DNA of 43,233 nt, taken from assembly GCA_009777835.1 (NCBI GenBank), contig WRKZ01000008.1, positions 1-43,233 on the forward strand, written 5' to 3'. Shown in pieces: positions 4,538-42,280 of this stretch. Position 1 is the stretch's first letter. Every line of letters starts with the position of its first letter. A program made the position numbers and the translations under genes. The notes under the pieces are model-generated. The model was given only the letters and a program-made list of their open reading frames with translations. It made no database searches and had not been told where the DNA came from. The DNA is from Oscillospiraceae bacterium (lineage in GTDB: Bacteria; Bacillota; Clostridia; Oscillospirales; Ruminococcaceae).

Positions 4538-5401
4538 ATGAAGTTAGTTATAAAAAAGCGGAAAAAGTATTCGGGTTCCGTTGGCGGTGATATAGCGATT
4601 TTCGTCATGTTGGCGATTCTCGGCTGTTTCATGCTTTTTCCGATTTATTTGTCTGTAATCCAGTCAATCAAACCGATTGAGGAGTTCTTCTTGTTCCCGC
4701 CCCGGTTGTATGCGATTAATCCCACGTTCCAGAACTTTGTTGAGCTTTTTGAGGCGGCGGGGAATATGTGGGTTCCGTTTACGAGATACCTCTTCAACTC
4801 GATTTTTGTCACGCTGACGGTAACGGTTTCACAGGTACTGTTTGCGTCGTCGGCGGCGTACGTCCTTTCGAAGGTCAATACGCCGGGGGTAAAATTCCTG
4901 AACAAAATGGTTGAAATCGCGCTGTTGTTCCAGTCTACCGTTACCTACATAATGGTTTACATGGTCATGGCTCAACTCAACATGATTGATACCTATTTCG
5001 CGATTACTCTCCCGTTTATAGCGACTCCGCTGTCGTTGTTCTTTATGAGACAGTTTATGGGACAGATTCCCGATTCTATGATAGAAGCAGCGCAGATTGA
5101 CGGCGCAGGTCACTTCAGGACTTGCTGGCAAATCGTCATGCCGAACTGTAAACCGGCATGGATTACGCTGATTATCTTTGCGTTTACTGCGGCATGGCAG
5201 ATTACCGGTTGGTCGTACATTTTCACCGAAGCACTTAAACCGTTACCGACTGTTCTCGACCAGATTCGTATGTCCGGTATAGCGAGAATGGGGGTCGGTG
5301 CGGCAGCATCGGTATTTATCATGACCCCGCCGATGGTGATTTTCGTGTTCTGTCAAAGTAACGTACTCGAAACCATGGCACATTCGGGATTGAAAGAGTA
5401 A
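4538..5401 (+). CDS. Sugar ABC transporter permease, MalG type (pair 1)
   Basis: This 287-residue membrane protein is the second channel subunit. It has six predicted membrane segments and the EAA loop EAAQIDGAGHFRTCWQIVMP in its usual place between TM4 and TM5. The MalG-like N-terminus (DIAIFVMLAILGCFMLFPIY) starts close to the first residue, unlike the second permease pair in this operon. The ATG at 4538 follows a short leader (GGAGTGAAACT). After the stop a repeat element (5407-5460) separates this gene from the beta-propeller gene. Confidence 0.93.
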   Translation: MKLVIKKRKKYSGSVGGDIAIFVMLAILGCFMLFPIYLSVIQSIKPIEEFFLFPPRLYAINPTFQNFVELFEAAGNMWVPFTRYLFNSIFVTLTVTVSQVLFASSAAYVLSKVNTPGVKFLNKMVEIALLFQSTVTYIMVYMVMAQLNMIDTYFAITLPFIATPLSLFFMRQFMGQIPDSMIEAAQIDGAGHFRTCWQIVMPNCKPAWITLIIFAFTAAWQITGWSYIFTEALKPLPTVLDQIRMSGIARMGVGAAASVFIMTPPMVIFVFCQSNVLETMAHSGLKE

Positions 5402-5406
5402 GCAAG

Positions 5407-5460
5407 AGCAAAACAAGAGCAACGGTGCGGCCGGCTTCGCCGGACGGCAGGCTGCTTGAC
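5407..5460 (+). repeat. 54-nt palindromic element, copy 1
   Basis: The copy begins AGCAAAACAAGAGC and ends GCTTGAC, with a central hairpin CCGGC-ttc-GCCGG. Aligned without gaps over 54 nt, it matches the reverse complement of 24811-24864 inside purL at 43 of 54 positions by hand count. It shares the same head, hairpin position and tail with 35144-35197 and 41959-42013. An extra partial head (GCAAGAGC) precedes it. Confidence 0.8.
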
Positions 5461-5519
5461 GGTACAGAGCATGAGCAGTTTAACAGAAACCGGATAACGA
5501 ATAATTGAGGAGAAGCGAT

Positions 5520-16986: not shown

Positions 16987-17529
16987 ATGGGAATTGTTTG
17001 CATAATCGGTAAATCTACCGATAGGGTGTTGGAAGAGATTATACTCTCCCGGTTATCGAAAACCTACAGGGTTACTTATATCAAGAATAAGAGCCTTGTT
17101 CAAGCGGGGAAAGGTTACGAAATTATCGTAAGCGACTTCACCGAGCTGAAATCACTGTACCTGCCCGAATGTATCATAATCATGAAGAATGATGGGGTAG
17201 TCCCTGCTATTCCACTGCCGGAGAAGAGTATAATCATCGTAAACTCCGACAACACCGACCAGTTGATTCGTCTCAAGAACACTAATCTCAACGTAATCAC
17301 ATGTGGTGTCAACGATAAAGACACGCTGAGTTACTCCAGTTCGGGGGCAGATTGTATCGTGACTTCACTCAACCGTGAAATCACGGCTTTTTCCGGGCGT
17401 AAAATCCAACCGCTGGAAATCCCGCTGAAACTCGAAAAAATGCCTAAAGATATCTATTACCCGATTGCCTTTACCGCTTTGCGCTTGATTCTCGACGATT
17501 TCAACTCGGAATTAGGCGGATTGATTTAA
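16987..17529 (+). CDS. Hypothetical protein, alpha/beta, 180 residues
   Basis: I do not recognise a named family. The protein is soluble, with a pattern of hydrophobic strands and helices beginning MGIVCIIGKSTDRVLEEIIL. A middle section reads NVITCGVNDKDTLSYSSSG, then IVTSLNREITAFSGRKIQP. The latter faintly recalls Mur-ligase-like proteins (the LQR.I....G..I.P pattern) but has no P-loop. The SD site AAGGGCGG precedes the ATG. It diverges from the exporter operon and is followed by the repeat region 17532-17695. Confidence 0.75.
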   Translation: MGIVCIIGKSTDRVLEEIILSRLSKTYRVTYIKNKSLVQAGKGYEIIVSDFTELKSLYLPECIIIMKNDGVVPAIPLPEKSIIIVNSDNTDQLIRLKNTNLNVITCGVNDKDTLSYSSSGADCIVTSLNREITAFSGRKIQPLEIPLKLEKMPKDIYYPIAFTALRLILDDFNSELGGLI

Positions 17530-17533
17530 AGCT

Positions 17534-17694
17534 AAACAAGGGTTCTGCGGCTAGCGGGCCAAGCTTGACGATTTAAGCGAAGTCCCACTTCTTTAACGAA
17601 CCAAGGCGGGTTTCCCGCCACAGGTGAGGGGGTTGGGGAGCCAAACAAGGGTTCTGCGGCTATCGGGCGAGCTTGACGATTTAAGCGAAGCCCC
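17534..17694 (+). repeat. Pair of direct repeats with a hairpin between them
   Basis: Unit 1 (17534-17587) and unit 2 (17643-17694) both read AAACAAGGGTTCTGCGGCTA, then a variable stretch, then GCTTGACGATTTAAGCGAAG and CCCA. They differ at only a few positions plus a small indel. Between them lies a perfect hairpin GGCGGG-ttt-CCCGCC (17605-17619). The heads (AAACAAGG) and tails (GCTTGACGA) match those of the 54-nt element, so these look like diverged relatives. They fill the gap between two convergent genes. Confidence 0.7.
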
Positions 17695-22010: not shown

Positions 22011-22040
22011 TTGACGAACGGTCTTGTTTTATGGTATAAT
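22011..22040 (+). promoter_or_regulatory. Sigma-A promoter of purL (extended -10)
   Basis: TTGACG (22011-22016), 18 bp spacer, TATAAT (22035-22040) with an upstream TG at 22032-22033. The predicted leader is about 43 nt, too short for a purine riboswitch. Confidence 0.8.
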
Positions 22041-22089
22041 AAACCGTAATAAATTGAAAAAAGCGCGCACGAAAGGAAGTGTTACATTT

Positions 22090-25000
22090 ATGACGAAACC
22101 ATTTCGTTATTATGCGGAAAAGAAGACCGGGTTCGATTTCTCCGCAAAAGCCGTAGAATCCGAATTGACAAAGGCGTTAGGCTTGTCGAATCTCAGCGTA
22201 AGGCTGTTCGACTGCTATGATTTGACGTTCGCCGACGATTTAACTGACGAAAAGCGTTCGCAACTCGAACAAACCGTACTGCATAATCCTACAACCGACA
22301 TTCTTTATTCCGACAAGTTACCGGATTTGCCCGACACGTTTCATCTGTTCGGGATTGAACCCGTTACGGGTCAATTCGATGCAATCGCAGACTCACTCGA
22401 GCAGAATATCCAAATGCTCACTTTAGGGGAAAGACCCACCGTCAAGACAGGAATGTTCTACGCAATCGACGGATTGAACGACAGCGATTTCACACGGGCG
22501 AAAGCCTATCTCGTTAATCCGCTGGAATATCGATTCACCGAATTAAATCAGAATCCCGACACGCCATCTCAAAATCAACAAACAGACATCGCCGACATTC
22601 CGGAAGTGGATTTCGCGGAACTTTCTCAAATGGGATTAGCCATGTCGGAAGATGATATAACGGTCGTGAAGGAGTACTTCGAGTCGGAGGGGAGAAAACC
22701 CACCCTTACCGAAATCCTCGCGTTAGACACCTACTGGTCCGACCATTGCAGACACACCACCTTCAATACTATTATAAATGATGACTCGCTCAAAATCGAA
22801 GACCAACGGGTCAAATCGGCATATGAGCTGTTTAAATCGCTCAACTCACAAAAGGGTAAACGTCCGACCACCCTCATGAATATCGCTACCGCCGCTATGC
22901 GTCACTTCAAGAACAGCGGAGAATTACCCATGTTGGATGAATCGGACGAGGTCAATGCCTGCACGATTAAACTCGAAAAAGGCGAAGCCGCGGGAAAATA
23001 TCTCTTCTTCAAGAACGAAACGCATAATCATCCCACCGAAATCGAACCGTTCGGCGGTGCTTCCACCTGTATCGGCGGGGGAATCCGTGACCCTCTTTCG
23101 GGTAGAGCGCAGGTGTATCAAGGAATGAGAATCACCGGTGCGGGCGACCCACGTCAGCCGGTTGAAGAGACTTTATCGGGAAAACTCCCGCAGCGCAGAC
23201 TCACCCGCACAGCAGCGGAAGGCTTCAGTTCTTACTCAAATCAAGTTGGGTTATCGTCGGGCTTCTCGAAAGAAATCTATCACCCGGGATACGTCGCTAA
23301 ACGTATGGAAGCGGGGGGACTCGTTGCGTCGGCGGATATGAAGAACGTTCGCCGCGAAAAGCCGCTCCCGGGAGATTTAGTCCTGCTCCTCGGCGACAGA
23401 ACCGGACGAGACGGAGTCGGCGGGGCAACCGGCTCATCGGTATCACATGATGTCAATACCGTAACGGTTGCCGCGTGTGAAGTTCAAAAAGGGAATCCGC
23501 AGGCGGGCAGAAAACTGGGCAGACTGTTCAGGAAACCCGAAGCAACCCTTCTTATAAAGAAGTGTAACGACTTCGGGGCGGGCGGGGTTTCGGTTGCAGT
23601 GGGCGAATTAGCCGACGGTCTCGAAATCAATCTAGACAAAGTCCCGCTGAAATACGAAGGATTAAACGGCACCGAAATCGCAATATCGGAATCGCAGGAG
23701 CGTATGGCAGTAGTCATAGCCGAATCAGATTTGTCGGCAATGCTGAAGCTCTGTGATGCCGAAAACGTCGAAGCGACGGTCATAGCACAAGTCACCGAAC
23801 AGCCCCGTCTCGTCATGTATTGGCGGGGAAAGAAAATCGTTGACATTGCCCGCTCGTTCCTGGATTCTTCCGGCGCGAAACGGTATACCTCCGTGCGTGT
23901 TCCGACTGTTCCCCCCTCCGAACACAAAAAAACTGTTCCCGACTTGTCGGTATGCTCTCAAAAAGGCTTGACCGAGATATTCGACAGCTCGGTCGGCGGT
24001 CTGAACGTGTTCGCCCCCCTCGGCGGCAAATACGCATTATCGGAAATTCAAGTTATGGCGGCAATCATCCCGGGGACGAAATCTGCCGCGAGCATTATGT
24101 CATACGGCTTCGACCCGTACGCGCTTGAATCCGACCCGTTCGGCGGTGCGGTGAGTGCAATTGTGACTTCGGTAGCGAAATTAGTCGCGGTCGGTGTTGA
24201 TTTGGACACGGTTCATCTATCACTGCAGGAATTCTTCCCGCGGTGTGACTCTCCCGAAAAGTGGGGACTGCCTTTCGCGGCGATGTTGGGGGCGTTTTCG
24301 GCACAGGTCGGACTGAAAATCGCGGCAATCGGCGGAAAAGATTCCATGTCGGGTTCATTCGGCGATTTAGATGTTCCGCCCACTTTGATTTCATTTGCAG
24401 TGGGGGTCGGCGATGCCAAAACCCTGCTCAGTCCCGAATTCAAGAAAGCGGGAAGCCCGGTCTATGTGCTTCCGCTTGAGCCGGACTGCGATTCATTGCC
24501 TGACTATTCCTCAATAAAGACAAACTGGACAAAATACGGCGAATTGGTTCAAAGCGGAAAAGTTCTGTCGGCGTGCGTGTGTGAACACAACACCTTCATC
24601 ACCATAAGAAACATGGCAGTCGGAAACAAAATCGGTTTTATCGGGGAAGAGACTAGCTATCCTGTAGGCTCGATTATATTCGAAGCTAGCGAACAACTCG
24701 ATGGCTATACACTAATCGGAAACACGCAGGAAGCCCCGGAAATCAACGGAGATTCTATAGATGAGATTATCCGCGAATGGGAATCGCCACTGGAAAGCGT
24801 TTTCCCTATCGTCAAGTCGCCTGCCGACCGGCAGAGCCGGTCGCACTGCGACTCTTGTTCTGCTTCCAACGCTACAACAACGAATAAGCCTGTAATCGTC
24901 GGCAACAAAAAGGCGAAAGCCGTCATTCCGGTTTTTCCCGGCACTAACGGCGAATACGATGTTTCCTTTGCCCTCGAACAAGCGGGCGGCGTAGCCGAAA

Positions 25001-25590
25001 CGGTTCTAATCCGCAACCTCACGCCGACTATGCTGAATGAATCGCTTGCGGCACTGCAAAAATCCATTTCGGATTCGCAGATGTTAGTTTTCCCCGGCGG
25101 TGATTTCGGCGGAATAGTCGCACTTTTCCAAAATCCCGAACTTTTAGAATCCTTACAGGAACTTTTACGTCGCAACGGTCTAATCCTCGGAATTAACGAG
25201 GGATTCAAGGCTTTGTTACGGTTGGGATTATTCGGGGCGGATTTATCGGCGACATTCACCTCCGACAGTGGCGGTAAACACCTCCACCGATATGTACCCG
25301 TCCGCGTGGATTCGAACGCTTCACCGTGGCTGTCATGTTGTGAAGTCGGTGAAATATACGTTCAGCCTGTTTCTGCGTCGGAAAAATTGCTTGTCCCGAC
25401 TTCCGACATTCCGCAGGCGCAGATTGCGTTCAGATATGCAGATTCAAACGAGATTGAAGCAATCACAAGCCCTGACGGCAGGGTGTTGGGGAAAATCGCT
25501 CACTTTGAGCGGTATCGTGAATTCACTGCGAAGAACCTGCCGGGGAATAAGTTCCTGCCGTTGTTTGAAGGCGGAATCAAGAGTCTGTAA
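22090..25590 (+). CDS. purL: Phosphoribosylformylglycinamidine synthase, single-chain, with a degenerate glutaminase domain
   Basis: The protein is 1166 residues from the ATG at 22090 (MTKPFRYYAEKK, AAAGGAA SD site). It makes FGAM from FGAR, ATP and nitrogen in purine synthesis. The synthetase part is intact: YWSDHCRHTTF (His near residue 219), FKNETHNHPTEIEPFGGAST, GGGIRDPLSGRAQVYQGMRI, CNDFGAGGVSVAVGELADG and IGGKDSMSGSF. The C-terminal class I glutaminase domain starts near residue 943 (AVIPVFPGTNGEYD). The nucleophile motif normally GICNGFQ reads GINEGFK, so Cys is Asn at residue 1036, and PVSHGEGRF is replaced by PVSASEKLL. His1138 and Glu1140 (AHFER) remain. Residues 908-925 are encoded by an in-frame copy of the 54-nt palindromic element. 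FGAM synthesis from free ammonia or a separate glutaminase is inferred. Confidence 0.95.
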   Translation: MTKPFRYYAEKKTGFDFSAKAVESELTKALGLSNLSVRLFDCYDLTFADDLTDEKRSQLEQTVLHNPTTDILYSDKLPDLPDTFHLFGIEPVTGQFDAIADSLEQNIQMLTLGERPTVKTGMFYAIDGLNDSDFTRAKAYLVNPLEYRFTELNQNPDTPSQNQQTDIADIPEVDFAELSQMGLAMSEDDITVVKEYFESEGRKPTLTEILALDTYWSDHCRHTTFNTIINDDSLKIEDQRVKSAYELFKSLNSQKGKRPTTLMNIATAAMRHFKNSGELPMLDESDEVNACTIKLEKGEAAGKYLFFKNETHNHPTEIEPFGGASTCIGGGIRDPLSGRAQVYQGMRITGAGDPRQPVEETLSGKLPQRRLTRTAAEGFSSYSNQVGLSSGFSKEIYHPGYVAKRMEAGGLVASADMKNVRREKPLPGDLVLLLGDRTGRDGVGGATGSSVSHDVNTVTVAACEVQKGNPQAGRKLGRLFRKPEATLLIKKCNDFGAGGVSVAVGELADGLEINLDKVPLKYEGLNGTEIAISESQERMAVVIAESDLSAMLKLCDAENVEATVIAQVTEQPRLVMYWRGKKIVDIARSFLDSSGAKRYTSVRVPTVPPSEHKKTVPDLSVCSQKGLTEIFDSSVGGLNVFAPLGGKYALSEIQVMAAIIPGTKSAASIMSYGFDPYALESDPFGGAVSAIVTSVAKLVAVGVDLDTVHLSLQEFFPRCDSPEKWGLPFAAMLGAFSAQVGLKIAAIGGKDSMSGSFGDLDVPPTLISFAVGVGDAKTLLSPEFKKAGSPVYVLPLEPDCDSLPDYSSIKTNWTKYGELVQSGKVLSACVCEHNTFITIRNMAVGNKIGFIGEETSYPVGSIIFEASEQLDGYTLIGNTQEAPEINGDSIDEIIREWESPLESVFPIVKSPADRQSRSHCDSCSASNATTTNKPVIVGNKKAKAVIPVFPGTNGEYDVSFALEQAGGVAETVLIRNLTPTMLNESLAALQKSISDSQMLVFPGGDFGGIVALFQNPELLESLQELLRRNGLILGINEGFKALLRLGLFGADLSATFTSDSGGKHLHRYVPVRVDSNASPWLSCCEVGEIYVQPVSASEKLLVPTSDIPQAQIAFRYADSNEIEAITSPDGRVLGKIAHFERYREFTAKNLPGNKFLPLFEGGIKSL
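24811..24864 (-). repeat. 54-nt palindromic element inserted in frame in purL
   Basis: Read on the minus strand it starts AGCAGAACAAGAG and ends CGACTTGAC. Its central hairpin GACCGGC-tct-GCCGGTC has a 7-bp stem. Length is exactly 54 nt, as in the intergenic copies at 5407 and 35144, and it starts at the first base of codon 908, so purL stays in frame and gains 18 codons. The encoded peptide is VKSPADRQSRSHCDSCSA in the interdomain linker. Confidence 0.8.
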
Positions 25591-27826: not shown

Positions 27827-27846
27827 AGGGGTAATTGGAATCAATC

Positions 27847-27951
27847 ATGAATATACAGATATTCGGGAAGCCAACCCATTTCGATTTAATCCAAAGTTTG
27901 CGGGGAACAGAAAGGGGTAGTCATGAATATACAAATATTCGGGAAGCTTAA
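27847..27951 (+). pseudogene. Duplicated, degenerate 5' end of the ArsC-like gene (34-codon remnant)
   Basis: The bases ATGAATATACAGATATTCGG and onward repeat the start of the intact gene at 27923, with one mismatch over 27 bases (27845-27871 against 27921-27947). Similarity then decays (CATTTCGAT against TGTTTCGAT). The remnant reads MNIQIFGKPTHFDLIQ and so on, and stops inside the intact gene. It looks like the left-over of a tandem duplication. Because it keeps an ATG and overlaps the start of the real gene, it might still act as an upstream ORF. Confidence 0.6.
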
Positions 27952-28258
27952 ATGTTTCGATACGAAGAAAGCCGAACGATATTTTAAGGAGCGTGGGGTA
28001 AAGTTTCAGTCGGTAGATTTGATGCAGAAGGGGTTCAGCAAGGGTGAGTTGGCTTCGGTCATTAAAGCGGTAGGGCTGAACGCGCTTGCAAACGAGAAAT
28101 CGCAGGATTATCATCTGTTCGGCTATTTAACCGATGAAGCAAAACCCGACAAACTCCTCGAATGTCCGGGGTTGCTGAATACACCGATTGTTCGTAACGG
28201 AAGACTTGCTACGGTGGGTTATTGTCCGGAAGTTTGGAAGAAATGGGGGGAAGATTAA
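27923..28258 (+). CDS. ArsC/Spx family thioredoxin-fold protein
   Basis: This is a 111-residue protein of the ArsC/YffB/Spx superfamily, starting MNIQIFGKLKCFDTKKAERYFKERGV with a single Cys at residue 11. It also has the cis-Pro region LLNTPIVRNGRLATVGY that is typical before the last helix. Classical arsenate reductases of this fold use one N-terminal Cys, but no arsenic gene is nearby, so a general thiol or unknown role is more likely than arsenate reduction. GAAAGGGG gives the SD site. The following zinc-ribbon gene starts 2 bp after the stop, so the two are translationally linked. Confidence 0.85.
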   Translation: MNIQIFGKLKCFDTKKAERYFKERGVKFQSVDLMQKGFSKGELASVIKAVGLNALANEKSQDYHLFGYLTDEAKPDKLLECPGLLNTPIVRNGRLATVGYCPEVWKKWGED

Positions 28259-34690: not shown

Positions 34691-35143
34691 ATGAAAAGCA
34701 AACTAAAAATCTTGAAATTTCTGCCACTGCTCACTTTAGGGGCGATTTTAACCGGCTGTCAGTTTACGCCGAACGATGTCGGACGAGGTTATAACGGGGT
34801 TATAATCGGGATTGGGGTTCTGGCAGGGGCGGTCATGCTGTTCTTCGTAATTTTGGGAATTGTCTCGCTCTTATACAAAGGCAAGGATGTCCACGTGAAA
34901 ATCGTCAAGAAGAAAGAGCCGAAAGTCCTTCGCGATAAGACCAACAATCGCGGCGGGGCAACACTGTCCAGAAAAGCACGTCGCGAAAAGGGACGGATTC
35001 GCTACAGCAAAATCACGGTTGAACTTGACGGTGAGACTAAAACCCTCAAATGCAGTGACATCGTAATCTTCGATAAACTGTTGGTAGGACGGATTCAAAA
35101 GATTCGTATTCGTTTCGGCGAAATTATAAAGATTCTGAAATAA
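34691..35143 (+). CDS. Small lipoprotein-like membrane protein, unknown function
   Basis: The protein is 150 residues. The N-terminus KFLPLLTLGAILTGCQFTPN looks like a lipobox (LTGC). A second membrane helix follows at about 36-58 (GVIIGIGVLAGAVMLFFVILGIVSLL), then a basic cytoplasmic-type tail (KIVKKKEPKV, SRKARREKGRIRYSK) ending in a small beta-rich part (ITVELDGETKTLKCSDIVIF). The combination of lipobox and basic tail is hard to reconcile in one topology. The protein may instead be a two-helix membrane protein with both ends inside. A repeat cluster begins at its stop codon. Confidence 0.75.
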   Translation: MKSKLKILKFLPLLTLGAILTGCQFTPNDVGRGYNGVIIGIGVLAGAVMLFFVILGIVSLLYKGKDVHVKIVKKKEPKVLRDKTNNRGGATLSRKARREKGRIRYSKITVELDGETKTLKCSDIVIFDKLLVGRIQKIRIRFGEIIKILK

Positions 35144-35197
35144 AGCAAAACAAGAGCCCGCCGGGTCGTGGCTCTGCCACGAGCAGGGCGGCTTGAC
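35144..35197 (+). repeat. 54-nt palindromic element, copy with 6-bp hairpin
   Basis: AGCAAAACAAGAGC head, central hairpin CGTGGC-tct-GCCACG, tail GGCGGCTTGAC, exactly 54 nt. It starts at the stop codon region of the preceding gene. Confidence 0.8.
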
Positions 35198-35206
35198 GAG
35201 TGGCAA

Positions 35207-35273
35207 AGCAAAACAAGAGCAGCAGTGCGGCCGGCTCTGCCACGAGCAGGGCGGCACGAATCAAAACAAGAGC
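35207..35273 (+). repeat. Second, truncated element copy plus a further head
   Basis: From 35207 the head and middle are near-consensus (AGCAAAACAAGAGCAGCAGT, then GCGGCCGGCTCTGCC) and share CACGAGCAGGGCGGC with the neighbour copy, but the CTTGAC tail is lost at about 35256. A third head TCAAAACAAGAGC lies at 35261-35273. The array fills the 184-bp gap before prfA. Confidence 0.72.
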
Positions 35274-40070: not shown

Positions 40071-40108
40071 CACACCCTCGATTCACATGAATCGAGGGTG
40101 TGTTTTTT
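40071..40108. terminator. Intrinsic terminator after the M18 aminopeptidase gene
   Basis: A long stem CACACCCTCGATTCA / TGAATCGAGGGTGTG with a CA centre is followed by TTTTTT. The minus-strand gene 40107-40547 ends inside this T-run, so it may share the hairpin. A near-copy of the hairpin recurs at 40667-40699. Confidence 0.9.
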
Positions 40109-40547
40109 ATTCCTTATCAACCGAATAGCCGGATAATTCCATGGTAAAAGTATCTATGATTGTAATGCCGTCTTTTTCATATACGTTCACGACGCGTTTG
40201 GTATCACCGCTCTTTATGCGTTCTTCTTGGATTCTGAGTGCTTCTTCGGGTGAAGAGGGCATTTCTCCCATCAAATCTTCTGTTCGTGCATAGCCGCGAT
40301 TACCGTTATCACCAACTACGGCTGTTAAAACAGGGGAATCTTCCGGGCATACACCCATTGCACTTCCGTAAGTTTCGCCATTTTCGTTGACTTCATAGTC
40401 CGGTTTAACGAATTCGGCAACTTTTTCATGATTTGAGTCATTAAACAGAGGCTTTATTTTCGTGTCAGCAAATGCAACCGCCCCTATTCCGAGAGCCATG
40501 CCGATTGCAACGAATGAAGCCGTTGCAATTTTTTTGTTGATTTTCAT
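40107..40547 (-). CDS. Secreted small protein of unknown function
   Basis: The protein is 146 residues. The signal peptide (KKIATASFVAIGMALGIGAVAFA) is cleaved probably after AFA, so the product is secreted and not lipid-anchored. The mature part has the stretch GETYGSAMGV..SPVLTAVVGDNGNRGYARTEDL, then SPEEALRIQEERI and a final DGITIIDTFTM. I recall similar uncharacterised exported proteins in Bacillus and Paenibacillus with GETYG...GYVR..DL...PEEAL. It is transcribed from a near-perfect promoter. Two near-identical hairpins flank the gene, which hints that it was inserted. Confidence 0.82.
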   Translation of the reverse strand: MKINKKIATASFVAIGMALGIGAVAFADTKIKPLFNDSNHEKVAEFVKPDYEVNENGETYGSAMGVCPEDSPVLTAVVGDNGNRGYARTEDLMGEMPSSPEEALRIQEERIKSGDTKRVVNVYEKDGITIIDTFTMELSGYSVDKE

Positions 40548-40666: not shown

Positions 40667-40699
40667 CGAAACACCCTCAATTCACATGAATCGAGGGTG
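40667..40699. repeat. Near-copy of the 40071 terminator hairpin
   Basis: CGAAACACCCTCAATTCACA and the following TGAATCGAGGGTG repeat the sequence at 40066-40100. The differences are one missing AC pair and one base change in the left arm. No T-run follows on the plus strand. With the original it brackets the 40107-40547 gene and its promoter as direct repeats. Confidence 0.75.
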
Positions 40700-40730
40700 G
40701 TTAAGTTGAAAACCGAAGAAGGTCGGCGAA

Positions 40731-40765
40731 GCCGCCGACCCGTAAGCCCTTCTTGCAATATTGCT
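40731..40765 (-). repeat. Partial copy of the palindromic element
   Basis: On the minus strand it reads AGCAATATTGCAAGAAGGGC, then TTACGGGTCGGCGGCTTCGCCGACC. The hairpin core GGTCGGCGGCTTCGCCG is shared with the copy at 41959-42013; the CTTGAC tail is absent. Confidence 0.6.
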
Positions 40766-41567: not shown

Positions 41568-41924
41568 TCAGAATAAATCATTCAAGATTCCGCTGTCTTT
41601 GATAAAGGGAAACAGCGAAATCATTTTTGACAGTTTGACCGCAGTATCGATTTTATGGCGGTTCTCGTTCTTGAGGTGGGGGCGCAAGGCGAACAACAGC
41701 TCGGCATTCATGTCCGGTTTGTTCATATGTGAAAATAATTCCCCCATTTTTGAAAGCATATCGAAATTGATGTTGTCGAAGCCGGCATTGAATCCGTTGT
41801 CGGAATTTTCACCCGAATCGCCGGCTTCGGCGTTATTCTCAGACGATTCACCGGAATCGCCCGGACTTTGATTGTTACCGCTCATCATCATCTGCATGAG
41901 CATTGCCATGCTTTCCATATCCAT
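41568..41924 (-). CDS. Small Met/Asn-rich protein of a clostridial family, unknown function
   Basis: The protein is 118 residues. A Met-rich start (MDMESMAMLMQMMMSG) and a disordered acidic Ser/Asn segment are followed by a helical C-terminus, NINFDMLSKMGELFSHMN, then NAELLFALRPHLKNENRHKI and KLSKMISLFPFIKDSGI. I recall similar clostridial proteins (LLLALKPHL...K...AIK...L) lying next to genes like its neighbours here, but know of no function. Its start region is duplicated at 42010-42039, with a palindromic element between the two copies, so the SD site and start codon occur twice. Confidence 0.8.
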   Translation of the reverse strand: MDMESMAMLMQMMMSGNNQSPGDSGESSENNAEAGDSGENSDNGFNAGFDNINFDMLSKMGELFSHMNKPDMNAELLFALRPHLKNENRHKIDTAVKLSKMISLFPFIKDSGILNDLF

Positions 41925-42039
41925 AAGGCGAACCTACTCTTTATCAGTGTTTAATTATGTCAAGCTCCCCTGCTCGACGGCGAAGCCGCCGACCCGCGAG
42001 CTCTTCTTTTGCTTTCCATATCCATAAGGCGAACCTACT
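41909..42039 (-). repeat. 30-bp direct repeats flanking a palindromic element
   Basis: The 30 bases at 41909-41938 are repeated without mismatch at 42010-42039. The unit spans the stop codon of the 81-residue gene and the ATG with the first codons of the 118-residue gene. Between the copies lie 71 bp with the element 41959-42013. The upstream copy keeps an ATG and opens a 21-codon decoy ORF that runs through the element. Confidence 0.85.
41959..42013 (-). repeat. 55-nt palindromic element between direct repeats
   Basis: On the minus strand: AGCAAAAGAAGAGC head, hairpin GGCGGC-ttc-GCCG and tail GGAGCTTGAC, 55 nt. It is one base longer than the copies at 5407, 24811 and 35144. Confidence 0.78.
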
Positions 42040-42280
42040 TTTTCTTTTCATTCATGTTCTTCATGAAGTTTGCCATTTCGGGGGAGTTTTTCAGCACGTC
42101 CGCAACATCGGGATTAGACACTGCATCTTTGAACTTCTTCGCCCCTTTCGGGTCCATCTTTGCCATAATCGAATCGAAGTCGCCTTTATTCAGAGCATTT
42201 TTCAACTCTTCGACCGGCATCCCGATTTTCGCACTGACCGTTTCCAGCATTTTTTCCATGTTACCGCTATTCATCTTCAT
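42035..42280 (-). CDS. Small helical protein, unknown function
   Basis: The protein is 81 residues: KMLETVSAKIGMPVEELKNALNKGDFDSIM, then PKGAKKFKDAVSNPDVADVL and NSPEMANFMKNMNEKKK at the end. It is all helical and soluble, with two short repeat-like helix-loop units (..VEELKNAL.., ..PDVADVLKN..). AAAGGG gives the SD site. It is the first gene of the minus-strand cluster that continues with the 118- and 192-residue genes. Confidence 0.8.
   Translation of the reverse strand: MKMNSGNMEKMLETVSAKIGMPVEELKNALNKGDFDSIMAKMDPKGAKKFKDAVSNPDVADVLKNSPEMANFMKNMNEKKK

Follow-up and report, generated by a model that had tools for sequence, protein, structure and literature searches.

The window analyzed in this study, a stretch of 43,233 nucleotides, is contig C8 of the 1.74-Mb draft genome of an Oscillospiraceae bacterium (here named G000, 95% complete). 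On its plus strand it carries purL (22090..25590), the gene of phosphoribosylformylglycinamidine synthase, with the Pfam domains AIRS_C, FGAR-AT_linker and GATase_5 on 22024-25587. The open frame extends upstream to 22024, and the ATG at 22090 agrees with an earlier codon count. Within purL, on the minus strand and thus antisense to the gene, lies a palindromic element (24810..24864) with a core at 24810-24859 and the head AGCAG reaching to 24864. It is located in the linker N-terminal to the GATase_5 domain. An earlier note, made from the letters of the window, had described an insertion at 24811-24864 which begins at codon 908. The codon number, counted from the ATG at 22090, and the 18 in-frame codons (encoded peptide VKSPADRQSRSHCDSCSA) were borne out. 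The segment itself is real, but the element extends to 24810.

Further copies are dispersed over the window; those listed in the earlier note are real, but more are present. On the plus strand, one copy is located 5 nt 3' of the ORF 4538-5401 (5407..5461) and another abuts the stop codon of the ORF 34691-35143 (35144..35198), both recognized by sequence and model matches. The latter is followed head to tail by a second copy with a broken right end (35207..35254, nhmmer match) and by an additional head remnant (35260-35272, from the sequence). Two short-hairpin relatives on the same strand were identified by sequence and pattern match, the first abutting the stop codon of the ORF 16987-17529 (17530..17571) and the second 109 nt beyond it (17639..17679). 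The minus strand carries a copy at 41958..42013 (47.4 bits with the model), around which a repeat search found a gene-start sequence of 34 nt in two direct copies (41909..41942 and 42010..42043), as well as a truncated copy at 40723..40751 (nhmmer, 15.5 bits). A near-perfect palindrome, present at 40072-40109 and 40671-40699 and in one of these places followed by a T run, resembles an ordinary terminator. No Rfam match at gathering score was obtained in the whole window.

Read on the minus strand, the segment 24811-24864 is identical to 5407-5460 at 43/54 positions, confirming the count made before. The likeness to 35144-35197 that had also been pointed out amounts to 34/54 identical positions, and 39/54 are shared with 35207-35260. 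The 50-nt core in purL and a copy behind another gene (G000:C2:1920) are identical at 48/50 positions. Both differing bases are partners of the same stem pair 9-45, which is T-A in purL and C-G in the other copy. With the family covariance model R1, which includes the purL copy among its 33 building sequences, the segment scored 55.9 bits (E 1e-12). In an alignment with 11 sequences, one of which ends before this region, the length of the PurL linker before GATase_5 was variable. Since the linker varies among relatives, the insertion in purL rests on the DNA match to other copies, and by this match a convergent coding linker was rejected. A second PurL gene of G000 (C54:6766-10227), 56.6% identical to the PurL of the window, had no model match, and two places matching PurL were found in the related genome G006.

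On the sense strand the element starts with (A)GC(A/T)A-AACAAG, followed by an outer helix and an inner hairpin, each of 7-8 bp, the hairpin closing in a loop of 3 nt. A conserved GCAG(G) marks the internal loop on its 3' side and is followed by CTTGACG. In the 33 distinct copies from which R1 was built, 94.5% of the cells were paired and 11/15 pairs showed changes on both sides. The double-changed cells numbered 105 compared with 30.7 in shuffles, none of 500 shuffles was as high, and shifting the pairing partners abolished the signal. When folding was compared with own shuffles, the purL copy reached a z of -3.80, whereas the copy at 5407 folded no better than its shuffles (z -0.10). Wobble cells were G-T in 23 and A-C in 4 cases, the invariant G6-T48 pair being excluded and the counts not being independent among related copies. 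This excess of G-T over A-C indicates that the sense strand is the strand selected to fold. Its fold begins with G6-T48 and A7-T47; an alternative CAAG/CTTG pairing with two bulged bases was not chosen by the folds.

The length of the element is less uniform than first thought. Among 44 distinct G000 cores with a matching skeleton in the stretches examined, 40 were 47-52 nt and four were 35-42 nt long. An exact length of 54 nt, as the earlier note had it, is not a family property with cores ranging from 35 to 52 nt, and its suggestion of a fixed length divisible by three had to be given up because core lengths and array periods vary. Adaptation for being read as protein found no support either: 178/240 frames were stop-free compared with 189.6 in dinucleotide shuffles. 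Among 131 nhmmer matches from four genomes, neighboring same-strand copies less than 70 nt from each other were arranged head to tail in 29 pairs, at 45-65 nt, and no neighboring inverted pair was found within 200 nt. The arrays on C5 and C17 contain different variants within one array.

The ends were examined in 91 nhmmer matches of G000, all from the stretches examined. Here, 49 type-A matches ended CTTG-ACG (CGT-CAAG on the other strand), the profile having been built from copies with that ending. Another 16 type-A matches ended otherwise (ACA 8, AAG 3, ATG 3, GTA 1, AAA 1), 21 type-B matches ended ACA or GCA and five had no CTTG. The end opposite the CGTC tag reads CTTGTTTTGC on the tag strand, without CCA. 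Type B (L092-L129 and L135-L151; for example G000:C2:19609 and G000:C62:1886) combines the common hairpin with a second hairpin and AGAAAGG.ATGGTCATA. It is mostly located just 5' of gene starts, with exactly three bases to the next ATG in 23/35 listed copies, and near-identical copies were found in G006.

To search the genome for further copies and to count those inside genes had been proposed as a check, and both were carried out. The skeleton AACAAGRGY-N{12,40}-CTTGACG had 47 matches in the genome and none for the reversed control, which is well above chance. With the covariance model at least 107 matches at E 0.01 or better were obtained in G000, where 150 of 707 first-look candidates were scored; the lowest-scoring of the 107 are doubtful. 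Of 39 strict-skeleton sites in G000, six were inside scored ORFs, five in sense and one (purL) in antisense orientation. Frameshifting insertions are not recognized as intragenic by this procedure, so that the in-frame share has no denominator.

The family was found in few genomes. Model matches were present in 4/60 genomes, namely G000 and 3/59 relatives, with at least 97 copies in G000, at least 68 in G006, at least 44 in G003 and two in G020 when up to the best 100 candidates per genome were scored. In an order-wide model search of 394 genomes (1e-4, best 15 candidates per genome, stricter filters) two genomes matched, G000 and, with a single weak match, G072. An exact-pattern scan of one genome per species in 84,980 species yielded eight stretches. 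Five of these were found in three Oscillospiraceae bacterium MAGs, which we take to originate from termite guts, and the other three (27.1, 28.8 and 21.7 bits with the model) are probably chance matches. A viral contig (L091) carried three copies.

The genomic placement was analyzed for the strict-skeleton sites in the stretches examined, 39 in G000 and 15 in G003, with genes taken from ORF scoring and not from annotation. In G000 the upstream neighbor was on the same strand at 26 sites and on the opposite strand at five; two sites had no neighbor and six were inside ORFs. In G003 it was on the same strand at 14 sites and on the opposite strand at one. At sites flanked by genes on both sides, the upstream one on the same strand, a position 3-6 nt behind the stop codon was found for 11/13 sites in G003 (2.0 expected) and for 9/24 in G000 (1.0 expected). 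The expectation assumes uniform placement in the same gaps, and the observed numbers were never reached in 20,000 simulations. The abutted stop codons in G003 included TAA, TAG and TGA. Among 37 upstream genes compared in the stretches examined no homologous pairs were found, and the placements therefore look lineage-specific. On G003:C131 (L215), four head-to-tail copies are located directly 3' of a gene, presumably that of ribosomal protein L10, while its 78%-identical relative on G000:C12 has no copy beside it among the copies listed. This array likely lies within an operon, at a point where a terminator would be detrimental.

At some of the type-A sites the left flank of the element is repeated to its right. 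Such repeats scored 15 or more at 6/66 sites compared with 0.05 expected from shuffled pairing. At a score of 10 or more there were 11/66 sites (0.51 expected), some of which represent A-rich heads like that of the element itself. The other 60/66 sites scored below 15 and lacked a strong target duplication, and none was recognizable at the purL copy. The six strong direct repeats were 45, 47, 34, 32, 24 and 15 nt long. In these cases 0-4 nt separate the end of the left repeat from the profile match, and a filler of 7-16 nt lies between the right end of the element and the second repeat. A copy in the gene of RecJ is flanked by a 14-nt repeat without filler at a period of 60 nt, so that the overall range is 14-47 nt. 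The filler could not be explained as a degenerate remnant of the duplicated target, since its alignment with the left flank was no better than that of shuffles in 6/6 cases (p 0.20-0.94).

In the hisA case, the upstream gene ends in codons supplied by the left repeat (STKGVL, a C-terminus which we take to be typical of HisB), and hisA (Pfam His_biosynth) regains its start from the right repeat. This fixes the direction of the event: the empty site was flank-X-flank, and the element, the filler and a second X were added. The gene names gatA, gatB and proB are presumptive and were taken from translations. In four duplicated gene starts (G000:C12:10762, C19:12370, C9:16323 and 41958-42013 of the window) a truncated upstream frame was observed. 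In 3/4 it traverses the element until an ATGA overlap, shared with the restored gene, terminates it; at the window copy it stops inside the element. Taken together, direct repeats of target DNA around some insertions indicate that the element moves. At 37 further places two repeat matches were found, both at already known sites. Repeats scoring 20 or more were present without an element at 3/600 random places, and at 27845-27961 of the window two copies of a gene start (27-41 nt) lie 76 nt apart and are not separated by an element. Some duplication thus happens without the element.

In-frame insertion of a mobile palindrome, as claimed in the earlier note for purL, received support from orthologues of other genes. 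RecJ (Pfam DHH, DHHA1 and RecJ_OB) carries approximately 22 extra residues inside DHHA1 which were absent in 16/16 orthologues aligned. In AspRS, 38 extra alignment columns correspond to two tandem copies 60 nt apart and were absent in 13/13 sequences aligned; 16 genomes had been searched, and G006, G030 and G037, with partial or more distant matches only, were left out of the alignment. A phage-type portal protein (SPP1_portal) contains an in-frame copy close to the C-terminal end, and a 13-nt repeat recurs there at a distance of 60 nt. On the viral contig an open frame without a Pfam match runs across a copy; we assume that it resembles a distal tail protein. In G003, the AspRS gene (L184 2800-2890) contains, at a separate place, an in-frame insert of another sort whose DNA is palindromic (VKAAGSACPAEGKGQSPSCPEL), perhaps from another element family. 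The palindromic heart of this insert was found at no further place among 204 loci.

The element is a multi-copy family with a selected secondary structure, found in few related species and at different genes, and some of its insertions have the form X - element - 0 to 16 nt filler - X. We consider it likely that the segment in purL arose by insertion of a mobile, non-autonomous hairpin element of the REP or Rickettsia-palindromic-element kind, which would be moved in trans as a folded sense strand with a staggered break. In such a process, machinery supplied in trans would recognize the folded single strand of sense orientation and copy it into a target with a staggered break, the repair of which would yield long target duplications of variable size. 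Most surviving copies would then sit where they are least harmful or helpful to the mRNA, at gene 3' ends, and a few would be maintained in frame in tolerant loops or linkers such as that of purL. The purL copy itself is most likely a tolerated passenger.

Which enzyme might move the element was considered in several ways. A REP/RAYT route, in which a Y1 (HUH) transposase moves the single-stranded hairpin and has since been lost or lies in an unassembled part, appears unlikely to us. The short tagged palindrome, the structure on one strand and the positions behind genes are shared with REPs as far as these are described in the accessible text of a 2013 survey (PMC3733652). Y1_Tnp (PF01797) had one weak match in G020, which would suit this route, but none in the element-rich G000, G003 and G006 (drafts 82-97% complete), and a strong match occurred in G009, a genome in which no copies were detected by the model. 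In addition, insertion of the IS200/IS605 type is not known to duplicate the target, unlike the long target duplications seen here.

Long and variable target duplications are known from insertion sequences of the IS1634/IS1549 kind, and the element could be a MITE of such a DDE insertion sequence. The variable duplications of 14-47 nt and their presence at the six high-scoring sites agree with this, as do the matches to DDE_Tnp_1 (PF01609) in G006 (two, one below the cut-off) and G020 (one). However, DDE_Tnp_1, the sole DDE family searched, had no match in the drafts G000 and G003 and was present in the copy-free G005 and G014. A clean cut-and-paste reaction would also not account for the 7-16 nt of filler at the six high-scoring sites, which bear no relation to the left flank, and we regard this origin as decidedly unlikely. 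A still more doubtful idea is that of a new bacterial mode of transposition, in which a hairpin selected as a sense-strand single strand would insert preferentially at the ends of open reading frames, immediately after the stop codon, and leave long target duplications of variable size and filler at one junction, possibly by way of an RNA intermediate.

Very unlikely, in our view, is an RNA-mediated (target-primed) insertion by a reverse transcriptase, which would make the family a bacterial SINE-like element. The left edge is defined, the right edge carries filler, the target duplications vary and structure is selected on one strand, all of which is compatible with it, and G000 has one RVT_1 gene (L153 1240-2379), whose neighbors are presumably a ThiF-like and a resolvase-like gene. 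Against it, RVT_1 was not found in G003, G006 and G020 (G003 and G006 being 82-86% complete) and occurred in G005 (three) and G014 (one), both without the element. Moreover, the folding strand is the sense strand, but the U-rich end able to prime is on the antisense strand. Since Y1_Tnp, DDE_Tnp_1 and RVT_1 are patchy in the hosts and present in element-free relatives, no enzyme is named here.

We give equally little credence to the view that the element no longer moves and is maintained behind genes as a functional RNA element of their 3'-untranslated regions, the purL copy being a stray. The stop-codon excess, the sense orientation and the sense-strand structure would all suit it, but no homologous upstream pair was found among the 37 genes compared, and the target duplications and in-frame insertions show movement. 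A role in the mRNA at gene ends nevertheless fits the folding of the sense strand and the placement, and it is compatible with mobility. Chance resemblance of an ordinary low-constraint purL linker, which the varying linker length among relatives would suit, can practically be dismissed in view of the near-identity to another copy with a compensatory pair as sole difference and the E value given above.

It is from Rickettsia that palindromes inserted in frame are best known. The likeness to these elements that the earlier note had drawn holds for a dispersed palindrome found in frame in otherwise conserved genes (RecJ and AspRS, and purL by DNA match). That note knew of no such report for Clostridia, in line with one literature collection, in whose titles and abstract beginnings we found neither a clostridial nor a stop-codon-abutting example. 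In-frame RPEs have been reviewed (PMC10969869), and according to the available text of the 2013 survey RPE-4 and RPE-6 of Rickettsia are CGTC-tagged REPs (PMC3733652). As described there, CGTC-tagged REPs are located behind and inside genes and have no dedicated transposase (Di Nocera et al. 2013, PMC3733652). Genes of DNA repair and of tRNA synthetases are among those found REP-tagged in the survey, and a role in the mRNA at gene ends was proposed (PMC3733652). The words Firmicutes and Clostrid are absent from its text (PMC3733652). The present element shares with RPEs the dispersed short palindromes in frame in genes, a reverse strand that starts with CGTC and the repair and synthetase genes hit, here RecJ and AspRS. 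By the descriptions, not by RPE sequences, it differs in its clostridial host, two stacked helices, a conserved 3' internal loop, head-to-tail arrays and long target duplications at some copies.

Families 1-4 of the CGTC-tagged REPs are described with a single stem of 8-9 bp that begins with two A-T pairs, a loop of 4-5 nt and an unpaired tail which is mostly CCA; head-to-head dimers predominate and head-to-tail ones are negligible (PMC3733652). By this partial description, the present element resembles them in the CGTC tag at one end, the location at gene 3' ends, the intragenic copies and the lack of a dedicated transposase. In contrast, it is longer (approximately 50 nt), has two helices of 7-8 bp with an internal loop and a terminal loop of 3 nt, lacks the CCA tail and forms head-to-tail clusters instead of head-to-head dimers. 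With the GTAG REPs mobilized by RAYT/Y1 it has in common small tagged hairpins downstream of genes, but it lacks the GTAG tag and shows target duplications, and no Y1 was found in the element-rich genomes. MITEs duplicate a target of fixed size, whereas the duplications found here are long and variable. As outlined in the accessible parts of two sources, MITEs such as NEMIS, ERIC and RUP are likewise non-autonomous, intergenic as well as intragenic and protein-readable (PMC3733652, PMC10969869), but with 70-300 bp they are given as longer than the present element (PMC3733652). Integron attC sites were set aside, as the copies are dispersed on both strands.

The clostridium analyzed here thus shows in-frame palindromes with orthologue support in housekeeping genes, namely RecJ and, with two tandem copies, AspRS, in addition to copies in genes of phage type. 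The 2013 survey in its available text does not settle the way in which CGTC-tagged palindromes are moved (PMC3733652), and the long target duplications with filler provide a concrete footprint of an insertion reaction for such a palindrome. A testable clue to the choice of targets or to a role in the mRNA comes from how sharply copies are placed behind stop codons.
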